34,968 bases of DNA from an uncultured Ruminococcus sp. (GTDB lineage: Bacteria; Bacillota; Clostridia; Oscillospirales; Acutalibacteraceae), in contig CADBYC010000002.1 of NCBI GenBank assembly GCA_902798755.1, positions 67,637-102,604 of the forward strand, written 5' to 3'. Under the pieces are notes generated by a model. It was not told where the DNA came from. It made no database searches and saw only the letters and a list, made by a program, of their open reading frames with translations. Shown one piece after another: positions 201 to 5,134 of this stretch; position 1 is the stretch's first letter, and the number at the start of each line of letters is the position of its first letter. The translations under genes were made by a program, and so were the position numbers.

Positions 201-1547
201 TTAAATAAGGTGTCCCTTAGCCTTGATGACCTCGATGACCTGATCGACGTACTTCTCGCAGACTTCATCTGAGCCTGCTTCTACCATGACGCGGATCACG
301 GGCTCGGTGCCGCTCTCGCGGACGAGGATTCTGCCGTCGTCGCCGAGCTCCTCGGCTACCTTCGCGACAGCTGCCTGCACGTCGGGGTCGTTCTGCGCGT
401 CGGGCTTCGACTTGACGCGGACGTTCTTCAAGACCTGCGGATAGAACTTGCAGGGCGCCGCCAGCTCGCTCATGGGCTTCTCCTTCGCGAGCATGACCTC
501 CATCATCTTGAGCGAGGTCAGGATACCGTCGCCCGTGGTGGCGTACTTGCTGAAGATGATATGGCCGCTCTGCTCGCCGCCGATACGGTTGCCCGTCTGC
601 ACCATGTTCTCATACACGTACTTGTCGCCGACCTTGGTCTTTTCATACTCGATGCCGACCTTGTCGAGCGCCTTGTACAGACCGAAGTTAGACATGATCG
701 TGGTGACGACCTTGTTGTTGAGGAGCTTGCCGCGCTCCTTCATGTACAGACCGTAGACATAGAGGATGTGGTCGCCCGTGACGACGTTGCCCTTCTCGTC
801 TACGCACAGGCAGCGGTCAGCGTCGCCGTCGTAGGCAAAGCCGATGTCGAGACCCTTCTCCACGACGAACTTCTGTAAATGCTCGATGTGGGTGGAGCCG
901 CAGTCGGTGTTGATATTATAGCCGTCGGGGGCGTCGTTAATGACGTAGGTCTTAGCGCCCAGCGCGTTGAACACCGCCTTCGCGATGCTCCACGAAGCGC
1001 CGTTCGCGCAGTCAAGACCGACCTTCACGCCCTTGAAGCTGTACTTGCTCATAGAGATCAGATAGCCGATGTAACGGTTTCTGCCCTCGACATAATCAAC
1101 GGTTCTGCCGATACTCTCGCGCTCAGCGACAGGGATATCGATCTTGCCGTCGATGTACTCTTCGATCTTCAAGAGGGTGTCTTCCTCCATCTTCTCGCCG
1201 TTGCCGTTGAGCACCTTGATGCCGTTGTCATAGAACGGGTTGTGAGAAGCGGAGATCATGATACCGCAGTCGAAGTCGTCGATGCGGGTGATGTAAGCGA
1301 CAGACGGGGTGGTGGTGACGTGCATGATATACGCGTCGGCTCCGCTCGCCATCAGGCCTGTGCACAGCGCGTACTCAAACATATAGGAAGAACGGCGAGT
1401 GTCCTTGCCGATCAGCACCTTTGCCTTCTTGCCCTGGTTCGCGCCGTAATACCAGCCGAGGAAACGACCGATCTTGATAGCGTGGTCGAAGGTCAGGTCC
1501 TTGTTCGCTTCACCGCGGAAGCCGTCTGTACCGAAATATTTACCCAT
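201..1547 (-). CDS. glmM: Phosphoglucosamine mutase GlmM
   Basis: GlmM interconverts glucosamine-6-phosphate and glucosamine-1-phosphate in the cytoplasm, on the route to UDP-GlcNAc and peptidoglycan. The 448-residue length is normal for the family. The N-terminus MGKYFGTDGFRG is typical, the phosphoserine loop ISASHNP places the catalytic serine at residue 101, and the metal-binding loop DGDADR sits near residue 240. The C-terminal domain has the RESGTEPVIRVM phosphate-binding motif. It is the last gene of a minus-strand operon after nagB and the beta-helix gene, five bases after the latter, and a terminator follows it. Because the whole messenger starts with a glmS ribozyme, GlmM is probably also under glucosamine-6-phosphate control. 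Nothing in the sequence looks damaged. Confidence 0.97.
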   Translation of the reverse strand: MGKYFGTDGFRGEANKDLTFDHAIKIGRFLGWYYGANQGKKAKVLIGKDTRRSSYMFEYALCTGLMASGADAYIMHVTTTPSVAYITRIDDFDCGIMISASHNPFYDNGIKVLNGNGEKMEEDTLLKIEEYIDGKIDIPVAERESIGRTVDYVEGRNRYIGYLISMSKYSFKGVKVGLDCANGASWSIAKAVFNALGAKTYVINDAPDGYNINTDCGSTHIEHLQKFVVEKGLDIGFAYDGDADRCLCVDEKGNVVTGDHILYVYGLYMKERGKLLNNKVVTTIMSNFGLYKALDKVGIEYEKTKVGDKYVYENMVQTGNRIGGEQSGHIIFSKYATTGDGILTSLKMMEVMLAKEKPMSELAAPCKFYPQVLKNVRVKSKPDAQNDPDVQAAVAKVAEELGDDGRILVRESGTEPVIRVMVEAGSDEVCEKYVDQVIEVIKAKGHLI

Positions 1548-1552
1548 GGAAA

Positions 1553-2209
1553 TTACCTCTTTTCTACTACTTCACCGCTGTTTTTGTAAATGCAGTTCTC
1601 GGGGACAACGCCGCGCACGCAGGACGTGGGATAGACGTTGGAGTGTCTGCCGATGACGGTGCCAGGGTTGCAGACGGCGTTACAGCCGACCTCTACATAG
1701 TCGCCCAGCATCGCGCCGAACTTTTTCAGCCCTGTTTCGATCTTCTCGGTGCCGTTATGCACAACGACGAGCTGTTTGTCAGACTTCACGTTTGAAGTGA
1801 TAGAGCCCGCTCCCATGTGGGAGAAGTAGCCTAAGATCGAGTCGCCGACGTAGTTATAATGCGGGGTCTGCACGTGGTCGAAGAGGATAACGTTCTTTAA
1901 TTCCGCGGAGTTGCCGACGACGCAGTCAGCGCCGACTAATGCCGAGCCGCGGATAAACGCGCACTGGCGCACCTCGGTGTTCGGTCCGATGATGCACGGA
2001 GCGCCGAGATAAGCCGAGTCAAAGACCTTGGCGGTCTTGTGTACCCATACCTGCGGTGCTCTCTCTTCGTAATCGTCGCCGAGCGTCTCGCCCAGCGCGA
2101 TGATCATGTCCTTGATACCCTTGAGCGCCTCCCACGGATAGGTGAACTGTGAGAGATAGTCTTTCGCGAGGGTGTGGTCAAGGTCGTATAAATCCTTGAT
2201 AGTGTACAT
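1553..2209 (-). CDS. Stand-alone left-handed beta-helix (GlmU C-terminal-like) protein
   Basis: This is a 218-residue protein. Residues about 50-205 carry hexapeptide-type repeats of the left-handed beta-helix acyltransferase fold, for example the stretches around AYLGAPCIIGPNTEV and YVEVGCNAVCNPGTVIG. It resembles the acetyltransferase half of GlmU but lacks the N-terminal uridylyltransferase domain. Proteins of this type are often labelled UDP-GlcNAc pyrophosphorylase, which the sequence does not support. The start at 2209 was chosen because it lies two bases after the nagB stop; an upstream in-frame ATG would overlap nagB. Placed between nagB and glmM, it plausibly acetylates glucosamine-1-phosphate or a related sugar phosphate. 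The substrate is inference. Confidence 0.85.
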   Translation of the reverse strand: MYTIKDLYDLDHTLAKDYLSQFTYPWEALKGIKDMIIALGETLGDDYEERAPQVWVHKTAKVFDSAYLGAPCIIGPNTEVRQCAFIRGSALVGADCVVGNSAELKNVILFDHVQTPHYNYVGDSILGYFSHMGAGSITSNVKSDKQLVVVHNGTEKIETGLKKFGAMLGDYVEVGCNAVCNPGTVIGRHSNVYPTSCVRGVVPENCIYKNSGEVVEKR

Positions 2210-2211
2210 TC

Positions 2212-3003
2212 TTACAGTCTCTCTTTCTTCTCGATGTCGAGGAAGTATTTGTAAGCGCCGACGGTCAGCTCGTCGCAAGCCGCCTCGTCACAAGCGATGA
2301 TCGCGCCGTTGTGCATCTGCAGAGCGGAGCAGGTCCACTTGTGGCTGACAGAGCCCTCTACGGTCTCAGCCAACGCCTTAGCCTTGTTGTGGCCGTTGAT
2401 CAGGATCAGGACTTCCTTAGAATCGGTAACGGTGCCTACGCCGACAGACAGCGCCTGAGCGGGTACAGCCTCGGGGTCGTTGCCGAAGAAGCGGGAGTTG
2501 ACGATACGGGTGTCGGTGGTCAGATTGCGGACGCCTGTGCGGGACGCAAGGCTGGTGAACGGCTCGTTGAACGCGATGTGGCCGTCTACGCCGATGCCGC
2601 CCATGAACAGGTCGATGCCGCCGTAGGAAGCGATCTTCTCCTCATAGCGCGCGCACTCGCCCTCGGGATCGTCGGTCATGCCGTTGAGGATATTGATGTT
2701 CTCGGGCTTCATGTCGACAAGATGATCGAAGAAGTTGTCGTGCATGAAGTACCAGTAGCTCTGGTCATGCTCGTGAGGGAGTCCGAGGTATTCGTCCATG
2801 TTGAAGGTGACGACGTTGGCAAAGCTCAGCTCGCCTGCCTTGTTCATACGAGAGAGCTCCTTGTAAACGCCGATGGGCGAAGAACCTGTCGGCAGACCCA
2901 GTACGAAAGGACGGTCCTCTTTGTGATTGTTGATTCTTCTGGCGATATAGTTCGCAGTCCACTTGCACATCTTATCGTAATTGTCCTGAATAACAACTCT
3001 CAT
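2212..3003 (-). CDS. nagB: Glucosamine-6-phosphate deaminase/isomerase NagB
   Basis: NagB interconverts glucosamine-6-phosphate with fructose-6-phosphate plus ammonia. The protein has 263 residues, close to the E. coli enzyme. Visible motifs are LGLPTGSSP (phosphate loop, about residues 35-43), FNMDEYLGLP with the acidic residue near 70, and GIGVDGHIAFNEP with Asp140, His142 and Glu147 at the catalytic positions. The ATG at 3003 has GGAGGT seven bases upstream; longer in-frame starts run into the leader. No nagA, PTS or GntR regulator accompanies it. Instead it heads an operon ending in glmM, and its 590-base leader contains a glmS ribozyme. That context argues for a biosynthetic rather than catabolic role, though the enzyme family is reversible and the sequence alone cannot decide the direction. 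Confidence 0.96.
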   Translation of the reverse strand: MRVVIQDNYDKMCKWTANYIARRINNHKEDRPFVLGLPTGSSPIGVYKELSRMNKAGELSFANVVTFNMDEYLGLPHEHDQSYWYFMHDNFFDHLVDMKPENINILNGMTDDPEGECARYEEKIASYGGIDLFMGGIGVDGHIAFNEPFTSLASRTGVRNLTTDTRIVNSRFFGNDPEAVPAQALSVGVGTVTDSKEVLILINGHNKAKALAETVEGSVSHKWTCSALQMHNGAIIACDEAACDELTVGAYKYFLDIEKKERL

Positions 3004-3112
3004 GATAGTTACCTCCGTTAAAAGTAAAATAAAAAATCGAATTTGTTTGTTGATCTCACAGAAAAGGCAGCGTCGGTAAGGATAACACCGATACTCGGAG
3101 AAGCTCAACGCT

Positions 3113-3228
3113 TCCGTAGGGACGATCAGCGATCGTCCGCATGACAGAAACGCTTCTCCCCTAACGGACGTTTTCGATAAAGGGAATGCCCGTCATTCTG
3201 CGGATGAGCAATGCTCATCCCTACGATA
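3113..3228. repeat. Pair of inverted palindromic repeats in the nagB leader
   Basis: Two short palindromes face each other. GGACGATCAGCGATCGTCC lies at 3120-3138 on the plus strand, and GGATGAGCATTGCTCATCC lies on the minus strand at 3202-3220. Each is preceded on its own strand by CGTAG and followed by CGCA and TGAC, so they are two diverged copies of one unit in opposite orientation. They lie between the ribozyme and nagB, so they are transcribed. They look like a small inserted intergenic repeat. Confidence 0.75.
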
Positions 3229-3242
3229 ACGCTGTTTTCCCT

Positions 3243-3305
3243 ATCAACACCACATATAAAATCATCTTTATCCAGCATCAAGAGAAGCTCTGTTACAGTG
3301 TTGAT
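3243..3305 (-). other. Accessory stem-loop between the ribozyme and nagB
   Basis: On the minus strand, ATCAACAC (3305-3298) can pair with GTGTTGAT (3250-3243), closing a loop of about 47 bases just after the ribozyme 3' end. Whether it belongs to the ribozyme fold or is independent cannot be told from the sequence. Confidence 0.4.
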
Positions 3306-3309
3306 TCTG

Positions 3310-3512
3310 CTTTTTGATTTCTCTCTGACGACACGCTGTACGCAAAAATTTATGTAAAATACCTTCCGAGTATTACCGAGGGCTGCCTCTTGCAGCCGCA
3401 TAAAAATCACCGTGCGTGATTTTGATTGAGTTTGCGTATTTGCCGTGGCAGTATCCGCCGAATCTTTCGATAACTGCCAAACCTCGTCAACCAATTACGG
3501 TCCCGGCGCTAA
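3310..3512 (-). ncRNA. glmS self-cleaving ribozyme (glucosamine-6-phosphate riboswitch)
   Basis: Read on the minus strand, the conserved glmS ribozyme core is present in order. The cleavage site is A|GCGCC (between 3510 and 3509). It is followed by a very short P1 loop, GTTGACGAGG, and TTATCGAAAGATTCGGCGG-AT flanked by the GGCAG/CTGCC stem. A variable P3 region contains the pairing TACGCAAA/TTTGCGTA and a hairpin AAAATCAC/GTGATTTT. The 3' end has AGAGAAATCA, as in the Bacillus subtilis ribozyme. In known members, bound glucosamine-6-phosphate acts as cofactor for cleavage and the downstream messenger is then degraded. Here the downstream genes are nagB, a beta-helix gene and glmM, not glmS. 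A 122-codon open frame across this RNA is not a gene. Confidence 0.95.
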
Positions 3513-3602
3513 CAGACCTCATGACCTCCTTTGAAGAGGGCTGTTTTAGGGCATGGCGCGGCTCCGTCGCCAACGGCATACAGTAACACACCATACGTTA
3601 AA

Positions 3603-3631
3603 AGTTTATCATAAGCGGGTGTAAAAGTCAA
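3603..3631 (-). promoter_or_regulatory. Sigma-A promoter of the ribozyme-nagB-LbH-glmM operon
   Basis: On the minus strand TTGACT (3631-3626) and TAAACT (3608-3603) are separated by exactly 17 bases. Transcription would start near 3596, about 85 bases before the ribozyme cleavage site and about 590 bases before the nagB start codon. Confidence 0.85.
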
Positions 3632-3717
3632 GAAAACGCGCCGAAACGCTCTGCACGGAATCGTATAAATATACCGCTTTCAAGCGCTGAATTTTATGGA
3701 ATAGTGAAGAAGTCGGA

Positions 3718-3759
3718 GAGTTAGGAGTGAGGAGTTAGGAGTGAGGAGTTAGGAGTTAG
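3718..3759 (+). repeat. Heptamer tract (GAGTTAG/GAGTGAG)x6
   Basis: Six perfect heptamers alternate mostly between GAGTTAG and GAGTGAG. The same units reappear at 3923-3950 and, complemented, at 4092-4126, so the tracts bracket the gap between nagB and galE. Confidence 0.95.
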
Positions 3760-3760
3760 G

Positions 3761-3921
3761 TAAGCGCTGATTAATTACTATGTCATTGCGAGGGCTTTAG
3801 CCCGTGGCAATCCCACAAAGAGAGAATCCGACGTTTCTGTCCTGTGGGATTCCCACGGTCGCTTAGTCGCTCCCTCGGAATGACAATGGATATGAAAGTA
3901 GCATTAATCATTGTTTACTTA
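3761..3921. repeat. Dispersed palindromic element C (copy 1)
   Basis: This is a MITE-like element. The left end TAAGCGCTGATTAAT is the inverse of the right end GCATTAATCA...TTTACTTA. Inside, TGTCATTGCGAGGG and CCGTGGCAATCCCACA are mirrored by GTGGGATTCCCACGG and CCCTCGGAATGACA, so the whole can fold into one long hairpin. It encodes nothing. Heptamer tracts flank it directly on both sides. Confidence 0.9.
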
Positions 3922-3922
3922 G

Positions 3923-3950
3923 GAGTTGGGAGTGAGGAGTGAGGAGTTAA
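3923..3950 (+). repeat. Heptamer tract, second part
   Basis: Four heptamers (GAGTTGG, GAGTGAG twice, GAGTTAA) continue the 3718-3759 tract on the other side of element C, as if C had inserted into a longer heptamer array. Confidence 0.9.
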
Positions 3951-3987
3951 GGGAAAGCCTGCGGCTTTTGGATTTATATAACCGCAT

Positions 3988-4034
3988 AAAACAATAACGC
4001 CTACTGCCCTTTGAAATAAGCAGTAAGCGTTATT
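3988..4034 (-). terminator. Terminator of galE
   Basis: On the minus strand AATAACGCTTACTGC pairs with GCAGTAGGCGTTATT (15 bp with one G-U pair) and is followed by GTTTTA. It lies about 90 bases after the galE stop; the heptamer tract separates the two. Confidence 0.75.
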
Positions 4035-4091
4035 ATAATCATCTATTATGCTGATTGTACCAAATGAATCAGGAGTGGTCGGAGTCTACCA

Positions 4092-4126
4092 TTAACTCCT
4101 CACTCCTAACTCCTAACTCCTAACTA
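4092..4126 (-). repeat. Heptamer tract (CTAACTC type) abutting the galE stop codon
   Basis: Five heptamers (TTAACTC, CTCACTC, CTAACTC twice, CTAACTA) are the complement of the 3718-3759 tract. The last unit ends at 4126, immediately next to the galE stop codon at 4127-4129. Confidence 0.92.
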
Positions 4127-5134
4127 TCAATACCCTTTCGGATTATTCTTCTGCCAGTTCCAGCTATCGCGGCACATGTCCTCGATGCCGTACTTTGCGG
4201 TCCAGTGCAGTCCTTCCTTCGCCTTGGCGGGGTCGGCGTAGCACTCGGCGACGTCTCCCGCGCGGCGGGGCTTGATGTCGTAGGGGATCTCGATGTCGTT
4301 GACCTTCATGAAAGCGTTCACGATGTCCAGCACGCTGTAGCCTGTGCCCGTACCGAGGTTGAAGATCTCCGTGCCCTTGTGCTCAGCGGCGTATTCGATC
4401 GCCCTGACGTGACCCTGCGCCAGGTCCACGACGTGGATATAGTCGCGCACGCCTGTGCCGTCATGGGTGGGATAGTCGTTGCCGAACACGCCCAGCCTCT
4501 CGAGCTTGCCGACCGCTACCTGTGTGATGTAGGGCATGAGGTTGTTGGGGATACCGTTGGGGTTCTCGCCGATCAGACCCGTCTTGTGCGCGCCGATGGG
4601 GTTGAAATAGCGCAGCAGCACCACGCTCAGCTCGGGGTCAGCCGTCGCCGCGTCGGTCAAAATCTGCTCGTTCATGTACTTTGTCCAGCCGTAGGGGTTA
4701 GTGCAGGAGGTGGGCATGCCCTCTCTGAGCGGCACCTCCTTGGGGATACCGTAGACGGTCGCGGAGGAGCTGAACACGATATTATGCACGCCGCGCTTCT
4801 TCATCACCTCCAAAAGGGTGAGGGTGGTGTCGATGTTGTTGCGGTAGTAGCGCACGGGGATCGTGCAGCTCTCGCCTACCGCCTTGAGCCCCGCGAAGTG
4901 CACCACCGCGTCAAAGCGCTCTCTCTGGAACATCGCGTCCACCGCGGAGCGGTCGGCAACGTCCAGCTCATACAGGACTGGACGGACGCCCGTGATGGTC
5001 TCGATACGGTCGATGACCTTAGGCGAGCTGTTGTCGAAGTTGTCGGCGATGACGACCTCATAACCCGCTTCGATCATTTCTACGGCGGTGTGGCTGCCGA
5101 TATAGCCCGCGCCGCCTGTCAGTAAAACTTTCAT
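4127..5134 (-). CDS. galE: UDP-glucose 4-epimerase GalE
   Basis: GalE interconverts UDP-glucose and UDP-galactose (some members also UDP-GlcNAc/UDP-GalNAc) in the cytoplasm, using bound NAD. It is a 335-residue short-chain dehydrogenase/reductase of the extended type. The NAD loop GGAGYIGSHT is at residues 7-16, the SSSAT strand at 121-125, and the catalytic pair Tyr147/Lys151 in YGWTK. The ATG at 5134 is preceded by GGAGG at a good distance; a longer frame starts 15 codons earlier without such a site. It follows the membrane dehydratase gene on the same strand by 153 bases, so both may be co-transcribed for cell-surface sugar supply. No free-standing promoter was recognised in that spacer. 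Confidence 0.96.
   Translation of the reverse strand: MKVLLTGGAGYIGSHTAVEMIEAGYEVVIADNFDNSSPKVIDRIETITGVRPVLYELDVADRSAVDAMFQRERFDAVVHFAGLKAVGESCTIPVRYYRNNIDTTLTLLEVMKKRGVHNIVFSSSATVYGIPKEVPLREGMPTSCTNPYGWTKYMNEQILTDAATADPELSVVLLRYFNPIGAHKTGLIGENPNGIPNNLMPYITQVAVGKLERLGVFGNDYPTHDGTGVRDYIHVVDLAQGHVRAIEYAAEHKGTEIFNLGTGTGYSVLDIVNAFMKVNDIEIPYDIKPRRAGDVAECYADPAKAKEGLHWTAKYGIEDMCRDSWNWQKNNPKGY

Follow-up and report, generated by a model that had tools for sequence, protein, structure and literature searches.

The glmS ribozyme is an RNA switch that cuts itself and is known mainly for turning off glmS, a gene of cell-wall sugar synthesis. Why should such a switch stand in front of nagB, a gene of the glucosamine-6-phosphate deaminase family? 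The question is raised by a stretch of 34,968 nt from an uncultured Ruminococcus sp. (Acutalibacteraceae; assembly GCA_902798755.1, contig CADBYC010000002.1, positions 67,637-102,604 of the forward strand), which as a whole is called the window below. On its minus strand, a promoter-like site is followed by a glmS ribozyme, a dispersed repeat, nagB, an acetyltransferase gene and glmM, in that order. The window copy resembles the ribozymes that precede glmS (RF00234) in its conserved core and fold and in heading what appears to be an amino-sugar biosynthesis operon; unlike them, it precedes nagB, the acetyltransferase gene and glmM.

An initial annotation, made from the sequence alone, had reported a glmS ribozyme upstream of nagB on the minus strand, and this was confirmed by covariance searches. 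Our covariance model R1 (29 aligned relatives with a short P3, the window left out, 148 positions), whose seeds were ribozyme-like leaders gathered by motif from other genomes, has a single match in the whole window, at 3514-3268 on the minus strand, with 142 bits, E 3.3e-41 and 148 of 148 positions filled. The search with RF00234 that the annotation had proposed also returned the ribozyme (3521-3393, 32.7 bits, E 1e-5, in a permissive scan of 2900-3900), and missed the Rfam cut-off of 37 bits, a gathering score that is a database cut-off and not a structural feature; a scan of the whole window at the gathering threshold gave no match. The annotated span, 3003-3512, was right about the ribozyme part and wrong in its extent: the ribozyme occupies 3514-3268, and most of the remainder, 3262-3040, is the dispersed repeat. 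The cleavage site and conserved segments were all found on the minus strand as described, with AGCGCC at 3510-3505, GTTGACGAGG, TTATCGA...TTCGGCGGAT and, further down, AGAGAAATCA, which lies within the 5' strand of helix P3.1. In the sequence and the alignments, the RF00234 core and cleavage site read AGCGCC ... GUUGACGAGG ... UUAUCGA ... UCGGCGGAU. The helices, which we take to correspond to those of known glmS ribozymes, are named P1, P2, P2.1, P2.2, P3, P3.1 and P4 after them, and by the same analogy the cut presumably falls between A3510 and G3509. The identity of the ribozyme and its placement before nagB are thus close to certain.

The secondary structure is supported by the fit of the window to R1 and by covariation among the 29 relatives. 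In these sequences 97.1% of pair cells are paired, versus 88.6% in column shuffles, and shifting the partners by 1-3 columns lowers pairing to 32-48%. Both sides have changed in 16 of the 31 pairs, and the covariation score was reached by 0 of 500 shuffles. In the R1 alignment, 104 bases, mostly extra, fall within one hairpin (P3) of the window ribozyme (3334-3437, minus strand), and this insert fits as an explanation of the weak Rfam score of the window copy. It is conceivable that the ribozyme has decayed or taken on another function, a relic deaf to glucosamine-6-phosphate (GlcN6P) and left behind when nagB took the place of glmS; the score below the RF00234 cut-off, the insert in P3 and the repeat between ribozyme and nagB would suit such a history. 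However, many core positions are invariant in the 29 sequences, compensatory change is strong, RF00234 matches exceed the cut-off in 15 of 38 genomes of the genus (a sample taken from a larger group, the window's own genome included), and related P3 extensions occur in G161, G166 and G184, where the core has hardly changed. A relic is, in our judgement, quite improbable. Two minor features of this region may be recorded. The P3 extension holds CTCGGAAGGTAT, common to the window, G161, G166, G184 and L023; resembling sequences are seen in L020 and L022. An 11-codon frame at 3522-3487, with its ATG behind a ribosome-binding-like AAAGGAGG, spans the cleavage site in the window and in G184; by eye, none was seen over the cleavage site in more distant ribozymes.

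The annotation had placed the ribozyme between a promoter and nagB, and this arrangement holds. The sigma-70-like promoter TTGACT-17-TAAACT at 3603-3631 on the minus strand (consensus match 9/12, with TG before the second hexamer) lies upstream of the ribozyme and is the only promoter-like site found on that strand in 2950-4150, where the scan gave 4 sites on both strands against a mean of 2.1 in shuffles. A like site is recognisable in the relatives G161, G166 and G184. A separate promoter downstream of the ribozyme, which the annotation had named as evidence against its proposal, did not appear: the same scan found no promoter-like site on the minus strand between ribozyme and nagB. It is very likely that the ribozyme controls the nagB operon. 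The repeat in the ribozyme-nagB interval (3040-3262, minus strand) has 34 matches in its own genome, itself included; at the corresponding place it is present in G184 and absent in G161 and G166. Read by eye, it has inverted ends, GTAGGGATGAGC ... GCGGACGATCG.

The three genes behind the ribozyme are separated by gaps of only 2 and 5 bases, and thus nagB, the acetyltransferase gene and glmM look like one operon. The first, nagB (2212-3000, minus strand), encodes a protein of 262 aa that matches TIGR00502 with 372.5 bits (cut-off 236.9) and has relatives in the PDB at E 3.8e-100. The last, glmM (201-1547, minus strand), encodes a phosphoglucosamine mutase (TIGR01455, 547.7 bits, cut-off 447.55) and is the only one found in this genome, which is about 90% complete (a single match at E up to 1e-60). 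Between them lies the gene for a left-handed beta-helix acetyltransferase like the C-terminal half of GlmU (1553-2209, minus strand), whose match to TIGR03992 covers profile positions 212-393 and is below that model's full-length cut-off. It resembles the archaeal bifunctional sugar-1-phosphate nucleotidylyltransferase/acetyltransferases of PDB entries 5z09 and 2ggo over residues 237-390 (E 2e-21) and, unlike them, stands alone without the nucleotidylyltransferase half. We propose that it may be a glucosamine-1-phosphate N-acetyltransferase. The glmU found elsewhere in the genome comprises the N-terminal half only (positions 3-239); the half that it lacks is thus apparently supplied by the operon. 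From GlcN6P, GlmM and an acetyltransferase of the GlmU type produce GlcNAc-1-P.

The annotation had argued that it makes no sense for a catabolic deaminase to be shut off by its own substrate, so that a ribozyme before nagB implies a biosynthetic operon. An off-switch that senses GlcN6P would indeed be of little use on an enzyme degrading it, and is ordinary feedback on one that makes it. The biosynthetic reading is supported by the presence of glmM and the GlmU-like acetyltransferase gene, by the failure to find a second glmM or nagA and, as described below, by glmS behind the ribozyme in three clusters and by glmM-nagB pairs in two congeners without a glmS match. A catabolic nag operon would pair nagB with nagA; here its neighbours are glmM and the acetyltransferase gene, and no catabolic gene was found among the genes of the operon. 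Nor was nagA found in the 38 genus genomes, either with TIGR00221, which matched 8 of 14 controls and missed B. subtilis, or with E. coli NagA, a search run without its own control whose query did match by tblastn in locus L058. According to the available part of PMC6171935, B. subtilis does have nagA. In L058, which has no ribozyme, the nagA match and a second nagB (45% identical) share the locus with an acetyltransferase-nagB-glmM cluster, which hints at separate nagB genes for catabolism and biosynthesis.

The window NagB belongs to the same family as the catabolic allosteric deaminase of E. coli and shares its active-site positions: D72, D141, H143, E148, R172 and K208 of E. coli, which we took to represent the active site, are conserved in it and in every NagB from the surveyed loci. 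It differs from the E. coli enzyme in its company, an operon with glmM and no nagA found, and in the GlcNAc6P activator site, for which Ser151, Arg158, Lys160 and Tyr254 are given in the excerpts of PMC4281351; these correspond to Thr, Gly, Arg and Tyr in the window, and loss of Arg158 would fit a lost activation by GlcNAc6P. We considered the Arg158 change as a mark of a biosynthetic NagB and rejected it as unspecific. Arg158-to-Gly also occurs in the NagB proteins of L083-L098, loci with no ribozyme and no glmM match, and is thus no mark of direction.

In most organisms NagB is catabolic, its reaction is reversible, and the NagB of Giardia has been reported as anabolic, producing GlcN6P from fructose-6-phosphate and ammonia (PMC4281351, in the part available). 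The window protein is like Giardia lamblia GlmNagB if it, too, is a NagB family enzyme for GlcN6P synthesis, a direction suggested in its case by the surrounding genes; Giardia is a eukaryote, and no ribozyme is mentioned in the available part of that paper. Two findings in excerpts of the literature speak against a synthetic role: the Km of E. coli NagB for ammonium is high, 31.4 mM (PMC11593775), and the NagB of Akkermansia, which is without glmS, proved unable to make GlcN6P under physiological conditions (PMC5902328). For the anabolic Giardia enzyme, the Km for ammonium is 19-23 mM (PMC4281351). Reversibility might also mean that the window NagB runs both ways according to supply, the ribozyme limiting only expression and net flux being set by ammonia and GlcN6P. 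The failure to find nagA and the absence of catabolic genes from the operon argue against this, and by itself such a two-way use would leave the retention of a product-sensing switch unexplained; we hold it to be very improbable. From the gene content, the window NagB likely works in the synthetic direction.

The pairing of ribozyme and nagB recurs, as seen in a survey of the genes that follow RF00234 matches, also suggested by the annotation. RF00234 (E up to 1) matches 21 of the 38 genus genomes, with at least 32.7 bits in 17, among them the 15 above 37. Each of these 17 matches is followed by nagB in the same orientation, the gene running off the contig in G164 and G173 and the match in G155 being in two pieces. 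The matches in G150, G151, G157 and G169, at most 20.3 bits, were treated as chance; in loci from three of these genomes (L115-L117) neither nagB nor glmS was found and R1 gave no match. At 30 glmS loci of the genus (L002 and L118-L146; flanks of at most 1.5 kb, some cut by contig ends), R1 found no ribozyme, an 18.6-bit match inside one glmS coding region being taken as chance. With nagB following in 17 of 17 genomes and no ribozyme at the 30 glmS loci, the ribozyme goes with nagB only in the 38-genome sample.

A nagB gene (TIGR00502, E up to 1e-20) is present in 19 of the 38 genomes, namely the 17 with a ribozyme and G165 and G174. In the latter two, nagB is of a second type, 37% identical and shorter, at which R1 found no ribozyme; no glmS was matched in these genomes (one 99% and the other 83% complete), and glmM is paired with the second-type nagB. 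At these loci (L163 in G165, L162 in G174), where this nagB adjoins glmM, a full replacement of GlmS is possible.

We also surveyed NagB loci from other records, using a search of genome contigs and keeping the best 80 of at least 590 confirmed loci. Because an early motif scan that demanded exact AGCGCC missed some loci, the counts use R1; and because some genus genomes are probably of the same species as surveyed loci, the genus and NagB-locus counts were not summed. Among these best 80, R1 finds a ribozyme of at least 121.7 bits at 38 loci, 20 of which are among its 29 seed sequences and 18 not. Each of the 38 has nagB behind the ribozyme in the same orientation, and 27 also have both the acetyltransferase gene and glmM, in varying order. 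When only nagB, the acetyltransferase gene, glmM and glmS are ranked, the first gene after the ribozyme is nagB in 30 of these clusters, the acetyltransferase gene in seven and glmM in one. At seven of the 38 loci, nagB has neither glmM nor the acetyltransferase gene behind it (5 kb read behind nagB in five, 2133 bases in L059 and 742 in L029), and in L206 and L207, too, nagB stands without them. In three (L039, L069 and L078), glmS is also downstream, 1159, 11 and 75 nt, respectively, from the preceding gene.

These counts bear on an alternative in which the ribozyme acts on glmM and the acetyltransferase gene, and NagB is a deaminase of the usual kind, either a passenger or serving as an overflow valve or in glucosamine use. 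That NagB is catabolic in most organisms is in its favour, and the conserved active site is compatible with it, since this does not tell direction. However, an overflow valve would then be shut off by the ribozyme at the very moment of GlcN6P excess; among the genes ranked, nagB stands first in most of the 38 ribozyme loci and is the sole one found in seven; glmS and nagB behind one ribozyme, as in the three clusters above, would form a futile cycle; and nagA was not found in the genus sample. We regard this alternative as rather unlikely, and favour a NagB that would itself be the controlled, synthetic enzyme.

The ribozyme is absent at 42 of the best 80 NagB loci, including some where nagB, glmM and the acetyltransferase gene are clustered. 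Some of these loci are cut near nagB (98 bases upstream in L044, 467 in L053); other ribozyme-less clusters were read with 5 kb upstream, e.g., L048, L060 and L062. Among the best 80, the ribozyme accompanies NagB proteins at least 90% identical to that of the window in 15 of 18 cases, at least 85% in 35 of 52 and at least 80% in 37 of 59; in L083-L098, with 70-74% identity, R1 finds none. Carriers are clustered in the NagB tree (0 of 500 shuffles as low). As drawn, the tree requires at least 13 gains or losses of the ribozyme, of which well-supported branches force only 4, a pattern compatible with one origin or several. By their titles, the records are mostly gut metagenome bins, many of them from ruminants, and are labeled Ruminococcus, Lachnospiraceae, Erysipelotrichaceae and others, bin names that may be wrong.

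It might be thought that NagB simply replaces GlmS in this organism. We rejected this possibility, as contig C63 of the same genome carries a glmS that is nearly full-length (597 of 607 model positions) and truncated only where the contig ends. This glmS has no ribozyme and adjoins genes for an ANTAR-type regulator and glutamine synthetase. The order glnA - ANTAR - glmS is the same in G161, G166 and G186, and thus the C63 gene is unlikely to be a contaminant; the arrangement was not seen at the other 26 genus glmS loci (flanks of at most 1.5 kb). In G161 (L210, 1397-9999) the order is glnA, ANTAR, glmS, glnA, aminotransferase, second ANTAR and a type III glutamine synthetase gene truncated at the end of the sequence read, so that glmS has three glutamine synthetase genes and two genes for ANTAR regulators around it. 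These neighbours suggest that glmS of the C63 type may answer to nitrogen supply. In the genus, 32 of the 38 genomes have a glmS match above the model cut-off; in G155 and G182 the matches stay below it, and G153, G163, G165 and G174 have none. The G182 copy was at first suspected to be broken, a suspicion given up because the copy contains an assembly gap (a run of N). Fifteen of the 17 genomes with ribozyme and nagB (the window's own and 14 of the 16 others) have a glmS match above the cut-off, so NagB need not be the sole supplier of GlcN6P.

We think it probable that the ribozyme responds to GlcN6P and provides end-product feedback on a biosynthetic operon with an aminating NagB, with GlmS kept as a second route. 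It would head the mRNA of nagB, the acetyltransferase gene and glmM; when GlcN6P is plentiful, this would bind the leader, self-cleavage would follow between 3510 and 3509, and decay of the operon mRNA would result. NagB would aminate fructose-6-phosphate with ammonia to GlcN6P, GlmM would convert GlcN6P to GlcN-1-P, and the beta-helix protein would acetylate this to the cell-wall precursor GlcNAc-1-P, to which the separate single-domain GlmU half would add UMP. The ribozyme would thereby act as end-product feedback on the ammonia-dependent entry step, for nagB as for glmS elsewhere, while a second, ribozyme-free route would remain through the glutamine-dependent GlmS, whose gene lies in a glutamine-synthetase cluster (glnA - ANTAR - glmS - glnA, at least in the close kin of the window). 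The rumen is rich in ammonia, and two nitrogen-dependent routes to amino sugars are plausible. More tentatively, the same division of labour may hold in many rumen and gut Bacillota, with a ribozyme-controlled, ammonia-dependent NagB serving when ammonia is abundant and a glutamine-dependent GlmS when nitrogen is poor; NagB would then be truly biosynthetic and the ribozyme its marker.

We found no report of a pairing of glmS ribozyme and nagB in the parts of the literature available, and nagB-linked copies may be present in the surveys of McCown and colleagues. The available excerpts of PMC3306399, PMC10668854, PMC11477304, PMC11602151 and PMC6171935 do not report it, and in PMC3306399 and PMC10668854, as excerpted, GlmS and NagB are treated as opposing enzymes. 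If our reading is true, a metabolite-sensing ribozyme follows the product that it senses and not the enzyme family, and the annotation of nagB as a deaminase would be misleading in many gut genomes and metabolic models. The ribozyme, present at 38 of the best 80 NagB loci, would then be a sequence marker for ammonia-dependent amino-sugar synthesis in ruminant gut bacteria. The reading also bears on the old question of whether a bacterial NagB is synthetic in nature, and on antibacterials directed at the glmS ribozyme, which assume glmS as the target.

Beyond the genus, both partners of the ribozyme are seen. At the family level (150 genomes, stricter filters), RF00234 gives 12 loci, of which nine lie beside glmS; the others are the window, L017 and L018, the last with its ribozyme at a contig end. 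At the order level, R1 matches 85 of 394 genomes; in the 30 loci read, the ribozyme is by glmS in 23, by nagB in 4 (G182, G443, G542 and the window) and by neither in 3. The top three order-level R1 scores, at least 136 bits, are all nagB-linked and the next is 95, the filters used at this level having split the window ribozyme into pieces of 82 and 43 bits. In L017, a locus with no glmS match, the ribozyme (1508-1654) lies behind an acetyltransferase-glmM pair and is followed on the same strand by a frame that looks gapA-like by eye. Three ribozymes from one genus of another family (L172, L173 and L181, near 1501-1660, R1 85-95 bits), in loci without a glmS or nagB match, adjoin a gene that by eye is 4-alpha-glucanotransferase-like and, in two of them, also a CPBP-type protease-like gene; the orientation of the ribozyme relative to these neighbours differs between the loci.
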